Shown here: positions 2,313 to 64,000 of the stretch, piece after piece
Position numbering within the stretch: the stretch's first letter is position 1
How the letters are laid out: each line of letters begins with the position of its first letter
Source of the DNA: Adlercreutzia muris
Lineage (GTDB): Bacteria > Actinomycetota > Coriobacteriia > Coriobacteriales > Eggerthellaceae
Reading direction: 5' to 3'
Assembly: GCF_008831045.1 (NCBI RefSeq)
Contig: NZ_WAJS01000008.1
Location: forward strand, 1-64,000
Length of the DNA: 64,000 bases
Notes under the pieces: generated by a model
Database searches by the model: none
Told to the model about the DNA's origin: nothing
What the model saw: the letters and a program-made list of their open reading frames with translations, nothing else
Position numbers and translations under genes: made by a program

Positions 2313-5300
2313 CTACAAGTCGAAGCCTCCTTCCAAGATGAAGCGACGGAGCAGGCTATCGGCGCGCATCTTCACCTTGAACGCGGGAATAGAAGCGCCC
2401 TCGAGTGCAGACAGATACTCGCGCGCTCGCGCTAAATCCACGGTATCCATGAGCTTGTCGAAGCGGCCGAATTCGTTCAAGCCCTCCTCATCAGGCCCTG
2501 CGGCAAGAAGCTCCGCGAGCTGCGCCACATTCACGCCCAGGAAGTCTCCGGCACGCGCGATGCGCTCGTCTTGGGCATGGCGCTGATACTCGGTGATGTA
2601 GTCGCGGAACGTCTTGGTAGAGTCCACGAACACATCGCCACTCTGCACGTCGTGAATGAACAGGTTGGCATACTTCTGCTCTTCCTGACTCAGCGTGGCG
2701 AAGGTTTTGTGCAACGCCGCCAGGGCCGCCTCGGTGGCCGCCGCATCCGCACCCTCCAAATCAAGCTGCTTGAGCCACTTGGAGAAGTTCGCGTTCATGT
2801 AGTCCTGGTCGATCTTCGTGGTGTCGATATCCATCAAGTAACCGCTGATGTCATAGGGGATATCGGCTCCTCCGCGCTCCCGCCCCTCACCGGCCGGCAG
2901 CTCCTTGTAGCGCTGGGCCAGCGTGAGGTAATCGGTCTCATCGAAACGCACCGATATAATCTCGCGATTCTCAACCAGCTCCGCCCCGACATTTTCCATC
3001 ACATCGGAAATTGCCGCCGCCAGTTCCTCGACCACGTCCTCCCCCACCGGGAAGTCGTAATCCGACTCGTCCCACGTAAACCCCTGCACCTTTGCCGCTT
3101 CTACCAGCAAGTCGAATTCGCGGAAGAGCTTGGCGAACTTGGCCTTGGCGGCGCCATTCTCAGGCAGATGCAGAAAACCTTCCACTCCCCCATCGTGGAA
3201 TACCGAGGAAATCTCATCGAAGACGCTGTTCAGCGCTAACAGATTCTCCCGCAGTTTCGGTACGAACAGGCCGAAGGGCTTGTCGCCCGAATACAAGCTG
3301 ATAGCCTCCTCGATATATTTGCGCATCGTATGGGGCCGACGATAGTAGCGAATAACGCCGAACGGCTTCTCGTTCTCGTTGAACAGGCGATTCGTGCGGC
3401 TGAACGCTTGGATAATCATCTCATAGCGCAGGATCTTATCCAGATACAGGGCATTGATCCACTTCGAGTCGAAGCCGGTCAGCATCTGGTCCACCACAAT
3501 GAGAATATCGAGCCGCTCCTCGGGCTTCTTCTCGATGCCCAGATAGGGCCGTTTGTGAGCCAGCCGGTTGGACACATCGGTCTTGAAAGCCGGCCACGTG
3601 CCTAGCGTGAATTCCTTGCCGTAGCGCTCGTTGTAATCGCCGATTATCTCCTCAAGCGCATCCTGCTTGATGAGTGCCTTATCGATGCGCTCCTGCTCGT
3701 TATCGATCGAGGGATCAACCAGAACCGTCACGCTCAGGGGCAATTTGTCCTGCTCCTTGAACAGGTGGTAGTAGTCGATGGCCTCGGGAATGGAATGGGT
3801 GGCGAACACCGCATGGAACTTCCCCATGCGGCTGAGCGTCGGCCAGTGCTTCAAAATGTCGGCCACCACCTGGCGCTGGTGCTCCGTCACCTCCGCCTGG
3901 CCGGCCGTGCCGTACTGCGATTCCGCCACCATGCTCTCGATGCCGTGGCACCGCTCACCCCGATCATTCTCGTAAGGGGCCATGGGCATGTCCATGACCT
4001 GGTAGTATACCCGCTCGCGCCGCGGATCGCCCATCACCTCTTCAATACTGCGGGCCTTGGCCTCGTCCAGCGCCACCGCTTGTCGCAAATCGAACTCCGG
4101 ATAGGTGGCTACCGGGTACGTGTCGAACCCGAGCACGTTCCCGTCCCGAATGCCGTCGGCGATGCTGTAGCGGTGCAGCTCGTCGCCGAACACATCGGTG
4201 GTCGTGCTCAGCTTTTTGCGATTCTCCTCGTGTATCGGCGTGCCCGTGAAACCGAACAGCACCGCCGAGGGAAACACTCGCCGGATGGTCTCCATGTTCT
4301 TGCCGAATGTCGAGCGATGGCACTCGTCCACAATGAACACCATACGCTTCTTCCGAATCGCCTCCAGGTCTGCCGCGCTCATGGCGTCCTCATCGATGTT
4401 GCCCATCTTCTGAATAGACGTCACGATGAGTGTGTCAGAAGGATCGGAGCTCTTCAGCTTCGCTTTCAGCACATCGGTGCTCTCGGTCTGCTGCACCGCC
4501 TCGGTGGCGCTGGCGAACGACCGGTACTGCTCCAGCGACTGCGTTCCCAGCTCGATGCGGTCTACCAGGAACACCACCTTGTCGGCGTCTTTGGAATTGG
4601 CAATCAGCTGCGCGCACTTGAAGCTGGTCATGGTCTTGCCACTGCCGGTGGTATGCCACACATAACCGCCTTTGAGCCCCTTGGCGCCCCACAGCTTGTC
4701 CCGATCGATCTTCGTCACGCGATCGGAGATGCGACTGGCCGCGAAGTACTGGTAGCTGCGCATGACCTTCAGAACGCCGTCGGAGTCGTCGGCCACGGTG
4801 TAGTAGCCGATGAGCTGGTGTGCCATGGGTATGCTCAGCAGCAGCTTCACCACATCGAGCCAGTGGTTCACCGGTTCGTTGTTGAAGTTCGCCCAATGGA
4901 ACTGGAATTTCTCGTTGAACGTGCCGTCAGGACCCGGATTGGCGAAGTACTTCGTCTCCTCCGGCGTCATGGCCACGAATATCTGCACGAGCGAGAACAG
5001 CCTCGTGAACACCCCTTCATGGGCATATTTGCGAATCTGCCCCGCTGCCTCGCTCACGGGCACACCGCTCTTCTTCAGCTCGAGGTGGAAAAGGGGCATT
5101 CCGTTGATGAGCAGCATGAGATCGCCCCTGCGGTCGTGGCCCAGCTTCGACTTTGAGGGAAACACCGGTTGCTGGGCTATCTGGTAGCGGCTCGATCCGC
5201 CGGCGATCTCATCGCGATGGAATATCTTCAAAGCCACATCGCGGCCCTCGTGCAACTTATCGTCGGGGTTATCGCGCTTAATGACGATCTCCTTGCCGTT

Positions 5301-50901: not shown

Positions 50902-52023
50902 ATGCTCTTCGATGTGTACGGCCCCAACGCCGCCTACCAATGGCTCGGCCTCGCCCTCGTTCTTGTCCTGCTCATCCTGCTGAACGAGTTCGCCCGCCGC
51001 ACCAAGTTCGGCGGATGCTTCATGTTCTTCGGCGTGTGCGGCGCCATGACCGTCTACTGCCTCGCCGTGGAGATCGGCGCGGCGGCCGGCGCCGAATGGG
51101 CGCTTACCAACCCCACCCACACCGACATGAACAGCTGGTTCCACTATGCCAAGGTGTATGCTGCCACCGCCGGCTGCATCGGCTTCATGATGCTCAAGTA
51201 CTCCTGGGGCAAAATCGGCCGCTCCCACTGGTTCAAGGCCTTCCCCTTCGTCATCGTGGCCATCAACATCCTCATCGCCGTGGTGAGCGACTTCGAGAGC
51301 GCGTTTCGCGCTTGGGGCACCACCTGGGTGTCCACCGAGGGCGTCACGCTCTACGGCGGCTGGCACAACGTGTTCAACGGCATCGCCGGCCTGCTTAATA
51401 TCGCCTGCATGACCGGCTGGTTCGGCATCTACATCTCCAAGAAGCGCCAGGACATGCTATGGCCCGATATGACCTGGGTGTTCATCATCGCCTACGATCT
51501 GTGGAACTTCTGCTACACCTACAACTGCCTGCCCACCCACTCCTGGTACTGCGGCGTGGCCCTGCTGCTGGCGCCGACCATCGCCGGGCTTCTGTGGAAC
51601 AAGGGCGGCTGGATCCAGAACCGCGCCTTCACCTTGTCCATGTGGTGCATGTTCTGCCAAATGGTGCCGATGTTCGCCAACGACTCCATCTTCGCGGCTA
51701 ACTCCGTGAACAACCCCAACGTGAACCTCGCGGTGTCGCTCATCGCGCTCCTCGCGAACGTCGCCGCCCTGGCCTACATCATGTACCGCGCCAAGAAGCT
51801 GGGCGTGAACCCCTACAAGCAGGAAGTGTTCGTGGGCACCAAGGACTTCCAGAAGGCCATGGAGCGCCGCGCCGATACCCCCTACCTGCTTGAGACCGAG
51901 CCCGCCAGCGCCACGGCGGCCGAGATCGCCGAGATGGTGGCCTACAACGACCTGCCCGCCGAGGGCACCCCGGGATACGTGTACGTGGCCGTGGAGAAGA
52001 TCGACACCCCGCAGCGCAAGTAG
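50902..52023 (+). CDS. DUF5692-type multi-pass membrane protein
   Basis: 373 residues, about nine hydrophobic helices rich in aromatic residues (LGLALVLVLLILLNEFAR, FGGCFMFFGVCGAMTVYCL, YDLWNFCYTYNCLPTHSWY, FTLSMWCMFCQMVPMFAND), then a ~75-residue soluble tail. Ribosome site AAGGAGG lies eight bases before the ATG. I assign it to the DUF5692 family from memory of the sequence style, without a search. The recurrent Cys, Tyr and Trp in helices are unusual. It is divergent from the flavin reductase genes. Function unknown. Confidence 0.7.
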   Translation: MLFDVYGPNAAYQWLGLALVLVLLILLNEFARRTKFGGCFMFFGVCGAMTVYCLAVEIGAAAGAEWALTNPTHTDMNSWFHYAKVYAATAGCIGFMMLKYSWGKIGRSHWFKAFPFVIVAINILIAVVSDFESAFRAWGTTWVSTEGVTLYGGWHNVFNGIAGLLNIACMTGWFGIYISKKRQDMLWPDMTWVFIIAYDLWNFCYTYNCLPTHSWYCGVALLLAPTIAGLLWNKGGWIQNRAFTLSMWCMFCQMVPMFANDSIFAANSVNNPNVNLAVSLIALLANVAALAYIMYRAKKLGVNPYKQEVFVGTKDFQKAMERRADTPYLLETEPASATAAEIAEMVAYNDLPAEGTPGYVYVAVEKIDTPQRK

Positions 52024-54008: not shown

Positions 54009-54200
54009 CTACTCGCCCTTCGCCTGCTGGTCGGCCACGGCTTCTTCCAGCAGCATGAGCTGGGCGGTGGCCTTCTTCGTACCGCGGAAGATGATGAGCA
54101 CGTAGGCGAGCAGGGCCACCCACAAAAGCGCATAGGCCGCGATGATATAGGGGGCCGAAGGCAGGATGGTGGAATAGATGTCAGCGAGAATGGGGTTCAT
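54009..54200 (-). CDS. ccmD: CcmD-like heme exporter small subunit
   Basis: 63 residues with one membrane helix (APYIIAAYALLWVALLAYVL) and a basic then charged helical tail (FRGTKKATAQLMLLEEAV). Its position directly after ccmC, 9 bases away, and its size fit CcmD, which releases heme-loaded CcmE from the ABC transporter. Confidence 0.75.
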   Translation of the reverse strand: MNPILADIYSTILPSAPYIIAAYALLWVALLAYVLIIFRGTKKATAQLMLLEEAVADQQAKGE

Positions 54201-54209
54201 GGCTATCTC

Positions 54210-54977
54210 CTAGCGTTCGTCGTCGAGGGTTTCCTTGAGCGCGTCAACGCGCTGGGTGAGGCGCACCTGATTGAAGCGGGCGCGGTACAGGGCGAAGCCC
54301 ACAAGCAGCATGCCGAGCGCGCACAGGCCCACGCACAGGCCCATCTCGGGGCTCATGCCGCCCTCGCGCAGCACCACCGGATGGATGGACGAGGGAATGA
54401 GCCGCGTGATCATGAAGCAGATGGGCACGTCGATGGTGGCGATGATGGCCACCACAGCGGCAAAGGTGGCGCGGCGCTCCGGCTCGTCCACCGAGCTTCT
54501 CAGCACGAAGTAGGCGATCACGATGAGCATGAGGATGAGGTAGGTGGTCAGGCGCGGCTCCCAGCTCCACCACACGCCCCACTCGAAGCGCGTCCACATC
54601 TCGCCGGTGATCATGGTGAGCACCACGAACAGCAGGGCGATTTCCAGGCAAATGCGCGAGCAGGTGTCGAAACGCCGGTTCTTCGTCATGAGGAAGCGCA
54701 CGGCGTAGTAACACCCGAAGCCCAGGGCAAGAAACGACGTGATGGCCACGGGCATATGGAAGTAGAAGATCTTCTGGGACAGGAGCATCTTCTGGGACAC
54801 CATCACGTCCCCGATGAGCTCGGCGCCGTTCACTGTGGCACCGCCCACGGGGGCCACGGTGAAGAACGCCATGAGGAACCCGATGGTGGTCAGCACCGCA
54901 CCCGCAATGAGCGCCGGCGCCACCAGCTTGTCGGGCCACTGCCCCGCCTCGGGCAGCTTCAACGTTTTATCAGTCAC
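54210..54977 (-). CDS. ccmC: Cytochrome c biogenesis protein CcmC
   Basis: Places heme on CcmE at the outer face of the membrane. 255 residues, six helices, with the tryptophan-rich heme-handling motif WGVWWSWEPRLTTYLIL and flanking His residues (FHMPVA; SSIHPVV). It lies between ccmB and ccmD. Confidence 0.94.
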   Translation of the reverse strand: MTDKTLKLPEAGQWPDKLVAPALIAGAVLTTIGFLMAFFTVAPVGGATVNGAELIGDVMVSQKMLLSQKIFYFHMPVAITSFLALGFGCYYAVRFLMTKNRRFDTCSRICLEIALLFVVLTMITGEMWTRFEWGVWWSWEPRLTTYLILMLIVIAYFVLRSSVDEPERRATFAAVVAIIATIDVPICFMITRLIPSSIHPVVLREGGMSPEMGLCVGLCALGMLLVGFALYRARFNQVRLTQRVDALKETLDDER

Positions 54978-55152: not shown

Positions 55153-56031
55153 TCAGTTGACCACGAAATCGTAGAGCACCCAGCTGGCAAGAATCATAAC
55201 CACATCGTAGCCAGCGCCGAGCGCCAGCGAGGTGAGAAATCCGTCGGCGAACACATCGCCGCCCACGAGCGCGCAGGTAGTGGCCGACACGCAGGCGTAC
55301 AGCAAGGGGAAGATCACGGGCACGAACAGCAGCGCCAGCATCACGTCCTTGCCGCGGGTGGCGGCGGTGATGGTGGACAGCATGGTGCCGATGCCGGCGA
55401 TGCCGATGCTGCCGAGCACGAGCGGCGCCACCAAAAGCCAGCCCGTCTCGGCCGGGGCCGCGAAGCTGGAGAAGAACACCCAGTACAGCGGCACGGCGAT
55501 CACTTCCACCAACACAAGGAACACCAAATTCGACGTCGCCTTGGCCAGAAAGATCACGCCGCGGTCGAGCGGCGCCAAAAGCAGGCCCTCCAAGCACCCG
55601 TTCTCGGTTTCCTTGGCGAACGAGCGGTTCAGGCCCAGAAGCGATGTGAACACCACGAGCGCCCACAGAAGGCCGCCGGACACTTCCAGAAACTCCGCCC
55701 CGGGACGGGCGAAGGACAGGGCCACGCCGAACACCACGATGACCAAGAAGGCGTAGATGCCCATGGACACCACCATGTCCTTGGTGCGGAACTCCGCCTT
55801 CAGGTCCTTGGCGAGCAGGGTCTTGTACTGCGTCCAGGTCGAGGGCGCCTGGCAGAGGGCGCTGCGCGTCCCTTCGCGCTCAGCCGCAGAAGACGCATCG
55901 GAGGACTCCGGGTGTTCCGATCGAGCGAGTTCCGCAGCGACTGAAACAGCCCGGTGGGCTGTTTCACCAAGCGAGGACTGTTTGAGCGAATCGGAATTCC
56001 CGGAGGCTTCCGTTCCGTGGCGATCCTCCAT
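55153..56031 (-). CDS. ccmB: Heme exporter subunit CcmB with repeat-derived N-terminus
   Basis: Membrane subunit of the CcmAB transporter. 292 residues against about 220 usual. CcmB homology begins near residue 67 (TQYKTLLAKDLKAEFRTKD) and shows six helices. Residues 11-41 (GNSDSLKQSSLGETAHRAV... to SEHP) are encoded by a hairpin repeat also found near 62.4 kb outside a gene. No ATG, GTG or TTG in frame occurs between the repeat and the CcmB core, so translation must pass through the repeat from the ATG at 56031, directly after the ccmA stop. Confidence 0.9.
   Translation of the reverse strand: MEDRHGTEASGNSDSLKQSSLGETAHRAVSVAAELARSEHPESSDASSAAEREGTRSALCQAPSTWTQYKTLLAKDLKAEFRTKDMVVSMGIYAFLVIVVFGVALSFARPGAEFLEVSGGLLWALVVFTSLLGLNRSFAKETENGCLEGLLLAPLDRGVIFLAKATSNLVFLVLVEVIAVPLYWVFFSSFAAPAETGWLLVAPLVLGSIGIAGIGTMLSTITAATRGKDVMLALLFVPVIFPLLYACVSATTCALVGGDVFADGFLTSLALGAGYDVVMILASWVLYDFVVN
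55911..56000. repeat. Hairpin repeat, copy A (inside ccmB)
   Basis: About 90 bases, closely similar to copy B (62402-62491). Central stem GAAACAGCCC/GGGCTGTTTC (55943-55965) with a 3-base loop; outer stem TTCCGAT/ATCGGAA. Compared with copy B, three inner and one outer base pairs differ with pairing preserved. Confidence 0.9.
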
Positions 56032-56741
<710 letters not shown>

Positions 56742-56745
<4 letters not shown>

Positions 56746-59108
56746 TTGCCCTCCCCCGCACCAGCCGCGCCAGCCTCGTCGGCGCCATCGCCAGCGGCGT
56801 CATCGGCGCCATCGGCAGCGGCCTCATCGGCCCCGGCGGCTGCATCCCCCTCGGCGTCCTCCACGAGGGCCACCTCCTCGGCCACGGTCGCCTCCACGAT
56901 ACCGGGGCGTTCGGCCGCAGCAGCCTCATCGGCAGCCTCGTCGGCAGTGGCAGCCTCGGCCGCCAGGACGCGGACCGGCTCGTCGTCGCCTTCATCGCCC
57001 TCGCGCCGTACCGCGCGCTTGGCGAACAGCGGGATGAGGCAGCCCACCATGAGCAGGCCGAAGCCCACCCACACCAGCGAGATGAGCGGGTTCACCCGCA
57101 CATCCATGGAGAAGTCGCCGTTCTCGTTCACGCCGCGGTACACCACGAACAGATCCTCCAGCGGGAAGCTGATGACGCTCGCCTCCAGTTTCTGCTGCTG
57201 GGTGGCGCCCACCACCTGCACGGCCGGGGCCACAGAACCCACGAAGGCGCCGTCGCGGTAGGCGTCGAAGTACACCGTGTACTTCACGTTGCCGTTGCCC
57301 AGCTCCTCGATGTTATTGCCTGTATACTGCAGCTCGAAGTCCTGAATGACGAAGGGCTCCACAGTGGCGTCCTCGTCCTCGCTGTAGGGCACATAGTCGG
57401 TCACCTCGGTCACGTACATGGACGACCCGATGAGGCCCACGAGGATGACGCCCATGGCCGCATGGGCCACCGAGCCGCCGAACAGGGACAGCCGCCGGCG
57501 CAGCGTGGCGCCGGTCACGCGCTTGAGAGCGCGCACGGCCATGAACAGGGCGTTGAAGACGAGCAGACTCGCCACGGCGAAGCCCACTACGGTCAGGCCG
57601 TTGTAGTAGGCCGGCGCCCCCTGCTCCAGCAGCCCCTCGGCCGTGGTGCCGCCCATGGCGATCATGGCGTTGTAGCTGGGCAGCAGGTACGTGGCGAAGT
57701 ACACCATCAGCACGACGAACAGCACGAGCGCGCACAGCCCCGGCACCCGGGCGGCGCGCCAGAAGGCCTTCTTGTCGGTGCGGCGCCAGCCCAGAAGTGG
57801 GCAGATGGCCAGCACGGCCAGGTACGCGATGCCAAGCGGCCGGGCAATGGCGTTGTAGGTGCCCGCCGACAGGGACTGGCCGCCGAAGGGCAGCCAGCTC
57901 GGCAGGGCCGAGGACACGGTCATGTAGGCCAGAAGCACCGCGAACACCACCATGATGAGGTTGTTCACGTAGTAGGCCGCCTCCTTCGACGCCATGGACT
58001 CGATGTCGTCATCGGCCGCATTGACCGCGCCGAAGCTCTTGCGGCGCACGATAAGGCCCACGATGCCGGCCAAAAGCGACAGCACGATGAGCGCCCCGAA
58101 CATCACGAGCGACACCGGGTCGCCCTCGAAGGCGTGCACCGACTGCACGAGGCCCGAGCGGGTGATGAAGGTGCCCAGCACCACGAAGCAGAAGGTGAGG
58201 CAGGCGCAGAACACGCTCCAGCGCTTGAAGGCGCCGCGCTGGCGATACACAGTGAAGGAGTGGATGAGGGCCACGCCCACAAGCCACGGCAGCAGGCTCG
58301 CGTTCTCCACCGGATCCCAGCCCCAGTAACCGCCCCAGCCGAGCACCACGTAGGCCCACACGGCGCCCAGGCCGATGCCGATGCCGAGCAAAAGCCAGGA
58401 GAACATGAGGTAGCCGGTGGAACGATTCACCCACAGGGCCGAATCGTCGTCCACGATAAGCGCCGCCACGGCGTAGGCGAAGGGCAGCGTGAGCCCCGCG
58501 TAGCCGATGAACAACGTGGGCGGGTGGATGGCCATGGCCCAGTGCTCCAAAAGCGCGTTCATGGAGCGCATGGAGGCAGCGGCGTTCAGGACGCCGTTCT
58601 CGGCGAAGTAGCGGGAATCGGTGGTCAGGAAGGGCATGTTGGCCTCGGAGAACAGCAGCACCGAGACGAACGCCGTCAGCACGAGCTGGGCGATGCACAG
58701 CGCCCCGTTATCGAGGGGACGCGTACCCCTGCGCGTGGCAAACACGAGCACGGAGTTGAACACGGCGATGAGCCACGCCCAGAACAGAAGCGACCCCTGG
58801 CGGCCGGCCCACAGGCCCGCCAGCTTGTAGAGCCAGGCGATGTCGGACACCGAGTTGGAGCGGTTGTCCAGCACGTACTGGATGGAGTTGTCGCCGGTGA
58901 AGAAGCACCACACGAGCACGGCGCAGCACACCGTGAGGGCCGCCGCCACGAGCACGGCGGCAAGGCGGCCGCCCCAGGCGAAGGTCTCGGAGCGCTCGAA
59001 GGAGCGCTTCTTGTACAGGATGTGGGCCACGCCCAGGCACAGCACCGAAATCACGCAGCCCGCGAAGGCTACCAAAAGGCCGAGCAGGCCGATCATCGAG
59101 ACACCCAT
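56742..59108 (-). CDS. ccmF: Heme lyase CcmF
   Basis: Joins heme from CcmE to apocytochromes. 788 residues with about fifteen helices. The heme-handling WWD motif is WGGYWGWDPVENASLLPWL; other blocks are GSLLFWAW and LEHWAMAIHPPTLFIGY. The C-terminus carries ~80 extra Ala/Glu/Asp-rich residues (AAEAATADEAADEAAAAERP), probably disordered and absent from standard CcmF. It lies three bases after ccmE. Confidence 0.95.
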
Positions 59109-59111
59109 GGC

Positions 59112-59780
59112 CTAGCCCTCCAATGCAACGTCGGTGGCGGCGAACTTGCCGTCGTCGGTCATGGCGCCGGTCAGCACCACGGTGGCGCCATCGGTCACCT
59201 CATCCGACAGGGCCCCATCGAAGGTGACGGGCAGCACGACGCTCTTGTCGCTGGACTCGGCCAGCACGAAACGGTCGCCCTGGCCCGCAGCGGTCAGGGT
59301 GCCCTCGGCCACGGTGCCGGTCACCTTCACCACTTTGCCGATCACCTCGTTGCCGTAACCGAGCAGCTGCGACACTTGAAGGGCGTTGTCGGCGTTCTCG
59401 TACTTCGAGGGGCACTTGGTGACCAAGTTGCTGCACTCCAGAACGCCGGCCTCGTTGATCTTGCCGGTGCAGATGGCGGTCACATCGTTGCCGAAGGTGG
59501 AGGAGGCGGCGCCGTCATAGCGCACCTCCAGATGGGTGGCGGGATCGCCCTCCGGGTCATAGATCTTGAAGGTGAGCACGTTGTCGGTGGTGGCGAAGGA
59601 ATCCTGCACCACGTTGCCCGATACCTGCACCTTCTGGCCCGCCTGGGGGTTCTCCGCCGCCTCGGCCACCGAAAGCGTGGTGGCGGCGGTGTTGCCGCCC
59701 ACAAAGGCGAGCACCAGGATGAGCACGATGACGATGACGCCGGAGACGGCGATCATCCTCTTCTTCATCTTCGCGTTCAT
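59112..59780 (-). CDS. ccmE: Heme chaperone CcmE, CxxxY type with extra domain
   Basis: Periplasmic heme carrier, 222 residues from MNAKMKKRMIAV (59780), with AGGAGG upstream. One membrane helix, then an OB-fold. The covalent heme site is CPSKY (Cys123, Tyr127), where the standard family has HxxxY. A C-terminal stretch of ~90 residues (VIGKVVKVTGTVAEGTL... to VALEG) looks like a second OB-fold. The Cys-type CcmE is known from some sulfate reducers, archaea and Gram-positive bacteria. Confidence 0.92.
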   Translation of the reverse strand: MNAKMKKRMIAVSGVIVIVLILVLAFVGGNTAATTLSVAEAAENPQAGQKVQVSGNVVQDSFATTDNVLTFKIYDPEGDPATHLEVRYDGAASSTFGNDVTAICTGKINEAGVLECSNLVTKCPSKYENADNALQVSQLLGYGNEVIGKVVKVTGTVAEGTLTAAGQGDRFVLAESSDKSVVLPVTFDGALSDEVTDGATVVLTGAMTDDGKFAATDVALEG

Positions 59781-59972
59781 AATCCTCCTGTTTCCGTCGA
59801 TGAGCCAGACCGGCCTCCCCGACGGTCTGAAAAATACCATCGGCCAGTATCGCCGAAACACGCGCGGGCGCGGGCGGGAACTCCGCCGAAACCAGCAGAT
59901 CAGCGCAAACGCAACATTTTCGCAATGGGCTGGGCGCGGCGGAGCCGCCCGGCCGCTGCCCCGCAAAAAGCA

Positions 59973-60054: not shown

Positions 60055-61323
60055 CTAGGCGATGCCGAGCAGGGCGAAACCCTCTTCCAACTGGGCCTCG
60101 GCCTTGTCGAGGTTGGCGTGGGCGGCCTTATAGTTGTGGGCACCCTCGGAATTCTCCACCATCACATAGTCCCAGTAGAACTGCGCATGGCGCTGAATCT
60201 GCTGGGCTTGGGCCAGCTTGTCGGCATCCAGGCTGTCCTTCTGGGCGGCCAGCTCGTCGGTGTAGCGCTTGATGTCGGCGGCGATAGCGTGCTCGCGGTC
60301 GGTAACCTCCTTCTGCCAGCCGCGCACCTCGCCCGCGATGTCCTTGTGGCAGCTGCCGCACTGCTCCGTGATCGCGGGATTCTCCAAGGGGCTCACCAGC
60401 TCATGGGAGCTGTACTCGCCGTTTTCGTCGGAGACGGGGGCCATGTGGCAATCGGCGCAGCTGTAGCCCTGCTTGGCCATGGAAGACTGCTCGGCGCCGT
60501 AGATGGTCTCGAACTCGGGATGCTGGGCCTTGAGCATGGGCGCGCCGGTCTCGGGGTGCTCCCAATCCTTGAAGCCCATCTCGTCATAGTAGGCCAAGAT
60601 GGCCTCGGCGTCCATGGCCGCCAACCCCTCGTAGGGATTGCTCGTGGCCTTGGTGTCCGGATCGAAGTAGTACTCGTTGTGGCACTGGCCGCAGGTCTGG
60701 GCCTCCACGGGCACCTGCTCGGCATCGGAGCCCATGGCATGGGCGAAGTGCCGCTGGGTGACGACCACCTGGGTGGGGTCGTTCTCATGGCAGTTGTAGC
60801 AGCTGATGGGCTCGCTCATCTGCGCGAGCACCTCGGCGAAGGGGCGGGCGTAGGCCTCGTCGCCCTCGCTGTTCACCATGGCCGTGAACTGCGGCGTCTT
60901 GCAGGTGATGCAGTTGGCCAGGGTCTTGTCGTTCACGCGCGGCGTCTCCGAGATGGAACGCAGCGTGTAGCTGTGGGACGCGGCCTCGTCGTAGCCCTTG
61001 GCGAAGCCATAACCGGCGTACATGGTGGCCAGCTCCGGGTACTCTTCCAGGTAGTTCATCTTACCCTCGGGGCTGTTGGCCTCGTTGGCCTTGTAGGTGG
61101 CGTACTGGCCCGGGTAGATGTCCTTCCAGCTGTCGGCCAGCACGACGCCGAACTCGTCGGCCTCGGGGGTCTCGACCGGAGCGGCCACAGGCTCGGACGT
61201 ACCGGCACCTGTCGCGGGCTCCTGCGGGTTGCCGGATCCCGCGGGCGCGCAAGCGGCCAGGGCCGCCACCAACGCCACCGTGCCTACGGCCGTGGCAGCG
61301 ATGCGCATCGTCGACTTTCTCAT
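60055..61323 (-). CDS. nrfA: Pentaheme nitrite reductase NrfA (lipoprotein)
   Basis: Reduces nitrite to ammonium with six electrons. 422 residues: lipobox ALAAC (Cys25), active-site heme CITCK (138-142) with Lys as ligand, and four CxxCH motifs at 175-179, 211-215, 289-293 and 322-326. The family's YYFDP and KAQHPE segments flank the catalytic site. The lipid anchor replaces a membrane partner, and no nrfH is visible. AAAGGAGG precedes the ATG. It lies between napH and the ccm genes. Confidence 0.97.
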   Translation of the reverse strand: MRKSTMRIAATAVGTVALVAALAACAPAGSGNPQEPATGAGTSEPVAAPVETPEADEFGVVLADSWKDIYPGQYATYKANEANSPEGKMNYLEEYPELATMYAGYGFAKGYDEAASHSYTLRSISETPRVNDKTLANCITCKTPQFTAMVNSEGDEAYARPFAEVLAQMSEPISCYNCHENDPTQVVVTQRHFAHAMGSDAEQVPVEAQTCGQCHNEYYFDPDTKATSNPYEGLAAMDAEAILAYYDEMGFKDWEHPETGAPMLKAQHPEFETIYGAEQSSMAKQGYSCADCHMAPVSDENGEYSSHELVSPLENPAITEQCGSCHKDIAGEVRGWQKEVTDREHAIAADIKRYTDELAAQKDSLDADKLAQAQQIQRHAQFYWDYVMVENSEGAHNYKAAHANLDKAEAQLEEGFALLGIA

Positions 61324-61457: not shown

Positions 61458-62360
61458 CTAGGATTCTGCCACGGGATCGCGCTCCTCCCGCCGGGTCTGC
61501 GCCCGCGCGGGAAGGCGGCCGAGGGAGAAACTCAGCGCCCGAGCGGGGCACGTGTCCACGCAGGCGCCACAGGCCATGCAGTCGCCGGCGCGCACGATGA
61601 CGTCGTCGCCCGAGAGCGCGGGCGCCAAAATGACGGGATCGGCCAAACACGCCTCCTCGCATCGACCACAGTGCACGCAGGCGTCGTGGTTAATGTGCAC
61701 GTTCATCTGGCCCGCGCGGCCGAGGACCTGGAAGAGGCCGCCCAGCGGACACAGTGAGCGGCACCACACGCGCCGGCTCACGAAGAGCTCGGCGATCACG
61801 ATGGCCGCAAGCGTACCCGCCCCGGCAAACCCGCCGAAGGCGAGCCCCTTGTTCACCGCGCCGATGGGAGAGACGGTCTCGAAGACGGGAAAGCCCACAA
61901 GCGCCGATACCGCCACCACGGCCGCGGCCACGGCGATCTTCACGTGGCGGTCGAGCACCCGCTCGGGCACCGCGATGCCGAGGCGACGGCGCAGGGCGTC
62001 AACACCCTCGCCGATGAGGTTCACCGGACATACCCACCCGCAGAAGGCCCGCCCGCGCACCAGGCCGTAGGCCACCACCACGAGGGCCGCCCCCGCAAGG
62101 CCCACTGCCGCCAGCCCGTAGCCGGAAGCGAGCACCTCGAGGGCCACGAGCGGGTCGAGCAGCGGGATGCCGGCCGCCGAGGACGACGAGAGACTCCCGA
62201 AGAACACACCTTCGGCCGGCGTGGCAACCTCCCCATCGCCGCCCGCGTACAGCCCCGCCAAGCCCCATCCGGCCAACAGCGGCGGCAAGCAGAACAGCCC
62301 GAGCATCGCCACCTGAACGATCCGCCGAGCCAGCGTTATCTTTCCCATAGACCGAGTCAC
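61458..62360 (-). CDS. napH: NapH-type membrane ferredoxin
   Basis: Quinol-oxidising Fe-S membrane protein feeding periplasmic reductases. About 300 residues from a GTG at 62360 (VTRSMGKITLARR), chosen for GAGGAG upstream. Four helices, two loop motifs (FCGWVCP and CRSLCPLGG), and two 4Fe-4S clusters in the tail: CVHCGRCEEAC and CMACGACVDTCP. The open frame upstream of the GTG is non-coding repeat sequence (copy B of the hairpin repeat). napG is absent from the window. Confidence 0.93.
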   Translation of the reverse strand: MTRSMGKITLARRIVQVAMLGLFCLPPLLAGWGLAGLYAGGDGEVATPAEGVFFGSLSSSSAAGIPLLDPLVALEVLASGYGLAAVGLAGAALVVVAYGLVRGRAFCGWVCPVNLIGEGVDALRRRLGIAVPERVLDRHVKIAVAAAVVAVSALVGFPVFETVSPIGAVNKGLAFGGFAGAGTLAAIVIAELFVSRRVWCRSLCPLGGLFQVLGRAGQMNVHINHDACVHCGRCEEACLADPVILAPALSGDDVIVRAGDCMACGACVDTCPARALSFSLGRLPARAQTRREERDPVAES

Positions 62361-62401
62361 AATTTTCTCCTCAACAATGGCAATGCGTAGAGGGAACATG
62401 G

Positions 62402-62491
62402 GGTGTTCTGACCGAGCGAGTTCCGCAGCGACTGGAGCAGTCCAGAGGACTGCTCCACAAAGCGAGGACTGTCTGAGCGAATCAGAATACC
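62402..62491. repeat. Hairpin repeat, copy B (upstream of napH)
   Basis: Matches copy A (55911-56000) across its length. Central stem GGAGCAGTCC/GGACTGCTCC (62434-62456), outer stem TTCTGA/TCAGAA. It lies between napD and napH. Confidence 0.9.
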
Positions 62492-62517
62492 CCATGGTCC
62501 CGACCGGCGAAGAGCCG

Positions 62518-62772
62518 CTACCCGAGCGTTTCGTCCTCGAAGTTCACGTACACCAGGTTCACGTTCAGCACGCCGGGGATCGCCACCATGCGGCTCGATA
62601 CCTCGTGGGATGCTCCCGTCGAAGGCGCCTCGATGGTGACGACGATCTTGTAGCCGTTCACCTCGTGCACCTCCACCCCCTCCAGGGCCGCCAGCGCCTC
62701 GGTCACCGCGGACACGGCCTCGGGACGCGCCTCTACAATCAGCGAGGAGATGACCAGCTTCTCGTCTTCCAT
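62518..62772 (-). CDS. napD: NapD-like chaperone
   Basis: 84 residues from MEDEKLVISSLIVEARPEAV (62772), with GGAAGGAG upstream. The small ferredoxin-like fold with VEVHEVNGYKIVVTIEAP fits NapD, which binds the Tat signal of NapA and prevents export before the molybdenum cofactor is inserted. Lies between the diheme cytochrome and napH. Confidence 0.85.
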   Translation of the reverse strand: MEDEKLVISSLIVEARPEAVSAVTEALAALEGVEVHEVNGYKIVVTIEAPSTGASHEVSSRMVAIPGVLNVNLVYVNFEDETLG

Positions 62773-62831
62773 GCTCGCTCCTTCCTGCAGCAGCGGGAAA
62801 GGCAGCGGGGCCGCCCTTCCCACCACGGCAA

Positions 62832-63164
62832 CTACTCCTGGCTCACCGGATGGCAGGTGATGCACTCGGCACGGGGGCCGTCGATGGCGCGCGTGGCGGC
62901 GTCGCCTCCCACATAGTGGTCGGCGGGCAGCGGCGTGGCCATGCTCAAGAGCACCTCAGCCGTATCGCTCGACCCATGGCAGCCGTAGCAGCCATTCGCG
63001 CCGAGGCGCTCGTAGCGCCCCTCGTGGCTCGCCGGCATGAGCGGCGGCTCGCCCGGGTTGTAGGTCGCGCCCGTGTCGGCCATAGGCTCGGAACATCCGC
63101 CCAGCGCCGCCAGGCCCAGCGCGCCGGCCAGCACGGCGGCCGCGATCGTCTTTTTCCTCTTCAT
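62832..63164 (-). CDS. Small diheme c-type cytochrome lipoprotein (NapB-like)
   Basis: 110 residues from MKRKKTIAAAVLAGALG (63164), with GAGGGG upstream. Lipobox LGGC followed by two heme sites, CYGCH and CITCH, with spaced His residues (MPASHEGRYE, PADHYVGG) that can be axial ligands. Its place between napA and napD suggests it is the NapB-like electron donor to NapA. Confidence 0.85.
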   Translation of the reverse strand: MKRKKTIAAAVLAGALGLAALGGCSEPMADTGATYNPGEPPLMPASHEGRYERLGANGCYGCHGSSDTAEVLLSMATPLPADHYVGGDAATRAIDGPRAECITCHPVSQE

Positions 63165-63168
63165 GGCG

Positions 63169-64000
63169 CTACCCCTCAATCTTCTCGATGGAAACGCAGG
63201 TCTTCTTGAAATCGGGCTCCTTGGAAAGCGGGCAGTAGGTGTCCTGGACCACCAGGTTGATGAGCGTCTCCTCGGCGAAGAACGGCGCGAACACCATACC
63301 CTCGGGCGGCCGGGTGCGCCCCGCGGTGGACACCGTGATGTCGCAGGTGCCGAAGCGCGAGGTGAGCCGCACGCGATCGCCGTCGGTCACCCCCAGACGC
63401 TCGCAGTCGGCCGGGTTCACATCCAGCAGCGCCTCGGGAAGCGCCCGGGCGAGCTCGGGCACGCGGCGGGTCATCGACCCGGTGTGCCAGTGCTCCAGCA
63501 AGCGCCCCGTGGAGAACCAGAACGGGTACTCCTCGCTCGGCTCCTCAGCCGGCGGCTCATAGGGGCGGAACACCACCGAGGGGCGTTGGTCGGCCGACTT
63601 GTAGAAGCTCACGCCGCCGGCCTTGTCGTGCGCGCCGTAGGTTTCCACGCCGTGCTCGTCGAAGCCGTCCTCCTGCTTGCCGTCGCAGAAGCGCCACAGG
63701 GTGGGCAGCCACTTCCCGTCTACCTCGCGCACCGGCCAGGTGAGCCCGTGGTTGTGGATGTACTCCTCGTAGGGCGCCAGCTGCTTGGCCTCCATCTTCA
63801 GCTTGGCCTCGGCGTTGATGGCCTCCGCATCGGGGTTCAGGCTCGGGTTGCTGAAGGTGCGGTACTCCTCCCAGATGCTCGCGCACACCTCGCGGTCGGT
63901 TCCCTTGAAGGCGGCCGCATCGGCATCGTACCAGGCGCCGAACAAGTGGTCGAAGGCGTCCTCGCCGCCGATCTGCTCGCCGGCGAGGACCCGCTTGGCG
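63169..64000 (-). CDS. napA: Periplasmic nitrate reductase NapA, C-terminal part (cut by window end)
   Basis: The frame is open to the edge of the window, so at least 277 residues of a larger protein. It shows the C-terminal molybdopterin-dinucleotide-binding region: FWFSTGRLLEHWHTGSMTRR, VNPADCERLGVTDGDRVRL and EETLINLVVQDTYCPLSKEP. This matches NapA/assimilatory-type nitrate reductases. The N-terminal Fe-S and signal regions lie beyond the window. It overlaps no other gene and ends five bases before the diheme cytochrome's start. Confidence 0.88.
   Translation of the reverse strand, partial: AKRVLAGEQIGGEDAFDHLFGAWYDADAAAFKGTDREVCASIWEEYRTFSNPSLNPDAEAINAEAKLKMEAKQLAPYEEYIHNHGLTWPVREVDGKWLPTLWRFCDGKQEDGFDEHGVETYGAHDKAGGVSFYKSADQRPSVVFRPYEPPAEEPSEEYPFWFSTGRLLEHWHTGSMTRRVPELARALPEALLDVNPADCERLGVTDGDRVRLTSRFGTCDITVSTAGRTRPPEGMVFAPFFAEETLINLVVQDTYCPLSKEPDFKKTCVSIEKIEG

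Follow-up and report, generated by a model that had tools for sequence, protein, structure and literature searches.

The analysed stretch of DNA (the window) comprises the first 64,000 nucleotides of contig NZ_WAJS01000008.1 of Adlercreutzia muris, a member of the Eggerthellaceae. On its reverse strand it carries a Ccm gene cluster in which ccmE is followed by the adjoining genes ccmF, ccmA, ccmB and ccmC, as expected of System I* (Table 1). For ccmA, other ABC ATPase models among the matches listed scored higher than TIGR01189, yet stayed below their own cut-offs. For the probable ccmD, both CcmD (12.5 bits) and TIGR04391 (15.9 bits) stayed below cut-off.

Table 1. Positions of the ccm genes, of the parts of ccmE and of related features in other genomes; positions refer to the window unless a locus is named.
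Feature	Position	Strand	Remark
nrfA	60055-61323	-	ccmE sits between nrfA and ccmF
Likely ribosome-binding site of ccmE, AGGAGG	59784..59789	-	read from sequence
ccmE, two-barrel cysteine-type (System I*) CcmE, 222 aa	59112..59780	-	ATG start
N-terminal membrane anchor, residues 3-28	59697..59774	-	one helix in the AlphaFold2 model; membrane spanning inferred
Barrel 1 (D1), CcmE OB domain, residues 34-122	59415..59681	-	PF03100 match 59394-59672, 64.2 bits, profile 6-98
Heme-attachment motif C123-P-S-K-Y127 (CPSKY)	59400..59414	-	invariant in 71/71 rows
Fixed 8-residue linker, residues 128-135	59376..59399	-	8 residues in 71/71 rows
Barrel 2 (D2), CcmE OB domain without attachment residue, residues 136-221	59118..59375	-	PF03100 match 59124-59381, 46.1 bits, profile 5-89 of 99
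ccmF, heme lyase, 788 aa	56742..59108	-	only CcmF_C match in own genome
ccmA, ABC ATPase	56032..56745	-	TIGR01189 131.7 bits, cut-off 131.6
ccmB	55153..56031	-	first ~50 codons of listed frame overlap a repeat; true start probably downstream
ccmC	54210..54977	-	TIGR01191 90.7 bits, below cut-off 186
Probable ccmD, 63 aa, one hydrophobic stretch	54009..54200	-	weak match; position after ccmC
Insertion in CcmF of G233	L193, ccmF frame from base 3492, residues 422-512	+	
Insertion in CcmF of G254	L194, 2925-3248	-	
Adjoining ccmE pairs outside the class	L084 2122-3093; L085; L086; L087 1850-2845		paralog motifs CPDKL, CPDNY or CPENY

The C-terminal tail of CcmF (56742-57010, reverse strand) is rich in Ala, Glu and Asp and lies outside the CcmF_C match. 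Upstream of nrfA (61458-63945, reverse strand) we found a NapH-like ferredoxin protein, a weakly NapB-like cytochrome and an open frame resembling part of a reductase. A repeat of approximately 90 bases with an imperfect palindrome inside occurs in two copies, at about 55910-56010 and 62400-62500, and the arms of the palindrome change in step (GAAACAGCCC/GGGCTGTTTC in comparison to GGAGCAGTCC/GGACTGCTCC). As the copies overlap both ccmB and the napH-like gene, the listed starts of these two genes are doubtful. A DUF5692 family protein (438.7 bits) is encoded on the forward strand at 50902-52023.

The product of ccmE is, near certainly, a two-domain CcmE. Both domains scored above the curated PF03100 cut-off of 24.6 bits in the profile search of the genome, and on the whole 222-residue protein the Pfam CcmE model gave 106.8 bits, with its best stretch at residues 37-129. 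The predicted N-terminal helix precedes two barrels, which start at residues 34 and 136; CPSKY closes barrel 1, and barrel 2 stops at the position where the heme motif is expected. Single-barrel CcmE is described as one domain with the motif in the C-terminal tail, whereas here the motif lies between two domains, which makes the protein a variant. An earlier note, made from this DNA alone, had claimed that CPSKY replaces HxxxY, that the protein is about 70 residues longer than usual and that the extension is OB-like, probably a second OB domain. These claims held. Residues 123-127 are CPSKY instead of the HxxxY of standard System I, and the 222 residues compare with 159 in PDB 8ce8 and with 127, 132 and 137 in three single-barrel CPSKY relatives. 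The extension is by sequence a second CcmE domain, which when modelled alone also gave a confident OB barrel. The window gene was the only CcmE locus of its own genome (assembly 99.99% complete, 94 contigs); neither the separate HxxxY CcmE that would have spoken against the earlier note nor any other second CcmE locus was found there.

AlphaFold2 with 71 sequences predicted an anchor helix and two OB-type barrels for the full protein with a mean pLDDT of 86.2, and as the pTM of the full model was 0.48 the relative placement of the two barrels is left open by the model. Structure prediction had been suggested as a check, and it returned the second OB fold: folded alone, barrel 2 formed an OB barrel with a pLDDT of 93.3 and a pTM of 0.84. 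In Foldseek the whole model ranked 8ce8_E (CcmE) at the top (1.3e-5), and the top three structures for barrel 2 alone were all CcmE, namely 1lm0 (8.9e-5), 8ce8 (2.4e-4) and 2kct (4.7e-4). With VIA-align, barrel 1 was matched to the CcmE structures 1j6q (Z 13.0, 1.9 Å over 91 residues), 1sr3 (Z 12.9, 2.2 Å over 88 residues) and 1lm0 (Z 12.7); CcmE reached Z 13.0-12.4, with 2kct at 10.9, in comparison to values up to 12.8 (4joi_C) for non-CcmE OB proteins. For barrel 2, CcmE gave Z 11.1-10.5 and other OB folds up to 12.2. As VIA-align ties CcmE with other OB folds, we base the CcmE identity of the barrels on sequence, with support from Foldseek.

The proposed survey of CcmE in Eggerthellaceae bore the second domain out. 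PF03100 matched in 113 of 138 genomes of the family, and all 113 had at least two matches. In the sample of the class 219 of 396 genomes had a match (218 above cut-off), and 213 of these 219 had at least two; the 213 are counts of matches per genome, and a tandem in a single frame was confirmed in 53 frames (52 genes) and in 80 named loci. Among the class genomes with one Pfam match, G227 and G253 had a tandem once the frame was read, G216 and G267 were cut by contig ends, and in G254 the match sits inside CcmF. G369 was rejected as a carrier, its below-cut-off match lying in a 415-residue frame that reads as an unrelated protein. A scan of GTDB contigs gave at least 471 encoded relatives, the best 80 of which were kept as the named loci, and the match covered both domains in all 80. 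The titles of these best 80 were mostly those of the class or its families, with the gut genera Adlercreutzia, Gordonibacter, Slackia and Collinsella among them; five were loose (L103, L136, L154, L155 and L157) and L160 was titled 'Aeromicrobium'. The closest relative among the matches listed was an uncultured Enterorhabdus with 96% identity. The order ccmE-F-A-B-C on one strand was present in 60 of the best 80 loci from at least 471; 16 of the remaining 20 had less than 3.2 kb after ccmE, and L134, L136, L142 and L162 showed another gene arrangement.

Outside the class CcmE was found in 131 of 346 genomes of the phylum sample. By Pfam matches none of the 131 had a CcmE fusion, a count that may miss, among the 121 genomes with a single match, a fusion whose second domain is too weak for Pfam; in the other 10 the two PF03100 matches were on different contigs, far apart or in adjoining separate genes. 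Among plasmids no tandem CcmE was found; the search gave 3 records, and in each of them less than 80% of the query was covered. Opposite-strand matches of the barrel-1 model were discarded as genes and taken as mirror frames of GC-rich codons. The two-barrel arrangement was thus not seen in the other Actinomycetota sampled. From these sequence data the second domain is a degenerate second CcmE domain common to the Eggerthellaceae and the wider class and no quirk of one genome. Because the two-domain frame is conserved across the class, a chance origin is disfavoured.

Cysteine-type CcmE is known as System I* (PMC3601427), so that the reading of the window protein as Cys-type, through C123 of CPSKY, places it in a described group. 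CPSKY is the commonest System I* motif in the 2011 review, in 25 of 36 bacterial genomes (PMC3601427). The different heme chemistry that had been associated with the cysteine is drawn from the account in that review (PMC3601427), and by likeness it may apply to the window protein. Like the System I* CcmE of Desulfovibrio and archaea, the window protein has CPSKY, an OB barrel placed between membrane anchor and motif, and a genome that, as is frequent in these systems, lacks a CcmH match; the Desulfovibrio structure 2kct matches both of its barrels. Unlike the single-barrel System I* relatives of 127-137 residues, which end soon after the motif, it continues into a second CcmE barrel at a fixed distance. 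The fold of barrel 1 and the membrane anchor are shared with standard System I CcmE (HxxxY, E. coli; 1sr3, 8ce8), from which it differs in Cys for His, the second barrel and the lack of a CcmH match in the genome. The CcmABCEF system reported for Methanosarcina acetivorans likewise has a CXXXY CcmE and no CcmH, but its ccmD is absent and its genes are not in one operon (PMC9084895), whereas here one ccmE-F-A-B-C cluster is accompanied by a probable ccmD. In the mostly open-access texts on CcmE tandems or duplications, Eggerthella and Coriobacteri that were searched, a two-barrel CcmE was nowhere described. Within that scope the second barrel, found class-wide, is new, while the cysteine itself was already known. 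Two further observations concern cysteine-type CcmE elsewhere. L062, L065, L071, L073 and L083 have F for the motif Tyr (CPSKF or CSSKF), listed as a rare variant in the 2011 review (PMC3601427), and a plasmid of Metabacillus sp. B2-18 carries a single-barrel CPSKY ccmE (L172, 3923-4384, forward strand) with ccmF and an annotated ccmH, another cysteine-type CcmE alongside CcmH.

Conservation was followed in an alignment of 71 rows, consisting of the window protein and 70 of the best 80 of at least 471 loci; ten loci that started later or had a longer match (L107, L117, L140, L143, L146, L148, L150, L152, L154 and L170) were left out. CPSKY, the commonest System I* motif, was invariant in all 71 rows, and in the 53 class frames that were read (52 genes) it occurred once, in barrel 1, with no [CH]xxxY downstream. 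The linker from Y127 to V136 had 8 residues in every row, in comparison to spans between fixed columns of 85-90 residues for barrel 1 (70 of 71 rows) and 75-82 residues for barrel 2 (71 rows). Within barrel 2, G155, G205 and A215 were present in all 71 rows and R170 in 70, and no conserved His, Cys or Met was found across them. A heme relay, in which barrel 2 would bind another heme or receive the one on barrel 1, is made very improbable by this last result together with a Pfam match that breaks off short of the CxxxY position (profile 5-89 of 99), in spite of the CcmE fold that barrel 2 has kept.

In 10 pairs among five close relatives, dN/dS was 0.05-0.15 for residues 37-127 (barrel 1 and motif) and 0.20-0.44 for residues 128-222 (linker and barrel 2), approximately 2 to 4 times higher for barrel 2. 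As judged from these ratios, barrel 2 is under purifying selection. The higher dN/dS of barrel 2 would suit a neutral duplication that is carried along, but the values are well under 1, the linker is constant and barrel 2 is kept in 213 of the 219 class genomes with a match, and we give this explanation hardly any credence.

A tree of 64 domains over 94 columns grouped its 22 barrel-2 domains in one clade (98/99) and its 22 barrel-1 domains in another (96/93), from which barrel 2 is of single origin. The single-barrel proteins nearest to barrel 1 were those of lineages f31 and f45 (90/84), and the branch that holds barrel 1, barrel 2 and these proteins on one side had 78/72 only. Outside the class, four genomes (G463, G651, G675 and G684) have adjoining ccmE genes, with an altered-motif paralog just before the CPSKY ccmE, and CcmH was present in all four. 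These pairs resemble the window protein in pairing a CPSKY CcmE with a second CcmE whose motif is altered, and they differ in being two genes with the paralog first and with CcmH present, in contrast to one fused protein. In the AU test, a tree with barrel 2 joined to three paralog rows was less likely (p 0.175), and barrel 2 as a duplicate of the class's own barrel 1 gave p 0.384. The tree does not favour a derivation from the adjoining-paralog type, but neither a paralog fusion nor a duplicated barrel 1 is rejected, and the data do not choose between the two. The unfused pairs follow a similar logic to a barrel 2 that mimics a CcmE dimer partner, or that stabilises the protein in the cell envelope with no specific partner, and barrel 2 is indeed a degenerate copy of the same domain. 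However, the fixed linker and the purifying selection on barrel 2 speak against this role, as do the lower likelihood of the tree that joins barrel 2 to the paralog rows and the copy of barrel 2 inside CcmF (see below), which points to the lyase. We consider such a role unlikely.

No CcmH match was found in the own genome or in any of the 60 Eggerthellaceae searched, with search controls that matched in 4 of 14 genomes. Absence of CcmH, often observed in System I*, is in the account of System I* in PMC3601427 not a characteristic feature. ResB (PF05140) also had no match in the own genome, with controls matching in 5, which speaks against System II; the one DsbD_TM match there is of the CcdA type. 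In the phylum sample CcmH was found in 0 of 21 tandem-bearing class genomes and in 99 of the 131 CcmE-bearing genomes outside the class. Among 18 outside-class genomes with a Cys-type CcmE that were read, 10 were without and 8 with CcmH, and f31 and f45 have a single-barrel CPSKY CcmE, no CcmH match and the same ccmE-F-A-B-C order. In these genomes the tandem accompanies the lack of CcmH, and the lack of CcmH needs no tandem. As f31 and f45 are single-barrel and without a CcmH match, the absence of CcmH probably predates barrel 2. As the CcmH-less single-barrel relatives share the E-F-A-B-C order, barrel 2 would not be required for a CcmH-less system as such.

In standard System I, CcmH and CcmI receive or position the apocytochrome at CcmF, and barrel 2 could in principle have replaced CcmH in this task. 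The missing CcmH match in all 60 Eggerthellaceae and the 0 of 21 against 99 of 131 genomes agree with such a replacement. The proteins of f31 and f45, nearest to barrel 1, are against it, being single-barrel and also without CcmH, and so are the 10 of 18 genomes outside the class; we regard it as quite unlikely. As for the neighbouring nrfA, its product has one CITCK (CXXCK) and four CXXCH motifs, and PF02335 matched in 95 of 137 Eggerthellaceae. The CcmH family takes in NrfF. As the genome has a single CcmF_C match and no CcmH match, the lysine-type heme of NrfA may be attached by the general CcmF.

A CcmE-type domain was also found inside CcmF. The starting clue was the sole CcmE match of G254, which fell within a ccmF frame. 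A barrel-2 model detected the domain in the CcmF of G233 (37.9 bits) and G254 (37.5 bits), in comparison to 16.4 and 15.3 bits with a barrel-1 model, and when compared with the CcmE of G233 the insertion reached a score of 161 for barrel 2 but 86 for barrel 1. Among 176 ccmF-like frames, which include fragments and repeats, 3 had the insertion, two of them being the same G254 gene. Two of five genomes of the genus carried it, and G213, G234 and G247 did not; a 701-residue frame of G213 was set aside as a further case when it proved to be the tandem CcmE of that genome. Across 69 genomes of the order, a model built on the two insertions was strong only for the CcmF frames of G233 and G254 (215.9 and 214.6 bits), and the next match was barrel 2 of G233's own CcmE (63.5 bits). 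SVHAF of CcmF, which we take to be P-His2, one of two conserved periplasmic histidines, aligns in the insertion-bearing CcmF with 6zmq, and counting membrane spans from it would place the insertion in the next periplasmic loop. Two such histidines are described for CcmF in PMC10746174. The nearly invariant R170 of barrel 2 was not seen in the copy inside CcmF, and dN/dS between G233 and G254 was 0.38 for the insertion, 0.17 for CcmF before it and 0.24 after it. The insertion is probably one event. It hints that the lyase acquired and retained a copy of a barrel-2-like domain, which would suit a module that acts on CcmF. A local duplication without a docking role is a possible source, because ccmE adjoins ccmF and the assemblies of G233 and G254 are fragmented (about 110 and 220 contigs).

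Our working model, to which we give a probability of roughly 0.55, is a System I* chaperone with two OB barrels in which the non-binding barrel 2 docks the heme of barrel 1 on CcmF and presents it. With the N-terminal helix as its membrane tether, barrel 1 would take heme from the CcmABC(D) complex and presumably hold it covalently via C123 of CPSKY. Ordinary CcmE carries the attachment residue in a flexible C-terminal tail, which is described along with a 'buoy' model in PMC10457321, and one extra alanine near its attachment His abolishes heme attachment (PMC3601427). In the two-barrel protein the putative attachment residue instead lies between the barrels, in a hinge whose length is fixed. 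The attachment site is no longer present in barrel 2, which most likely carries no heme of its own and, kept at a constant distance from C123, could act on the heme of barrel 1. It may dock holo-CcmE on the CcmF lyase, present the heme and perhaps cover it, in a system without CcmH.

This model is supported by the 8-residue linker, since it stays constant while both barrels vary in length, by the single clade of barrel 2 and its purifying selection, by the shared gene order in 60 of the best 80 loci, and by the barrel-2-like domain that also occurs inside the CcmF of G233 and G254. It is weakened by the restriction of that insertion to 2 of 69 genomes of the order with a dN/dS above the rest of CcmF, by the single-barrel CcmH-less CPSKY relatives that keep the same gene order, and by the faster change of barrel 2, whose dN/dS is a multiple of the barrel-1 value. 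Further points against it are the pTM of 0.48 of the full model, the R170 that has no counterpart in the insertion, and the four loci with another gene arrangement. More tentatively, one heme-binding CcmE barrel and one that binds none might share the handling of the covalent heme across the class, with barrel 2 as a portable CcmF-docking module that was grafted into the lyase in one genus.

Many gut genera of this class respire with c-type cytochromes. PMC3601427 names as an open question for System I* how CcmE releases heme from a covalent bond, especially when that bond is a cysteine thioether. A heme site fixed between two barrels, one of them without an attachment residue, would offer a testable handle on the hand-over from CcmE to CcmF, and the genus that has the barrel also in CcmF would add a concrete one.
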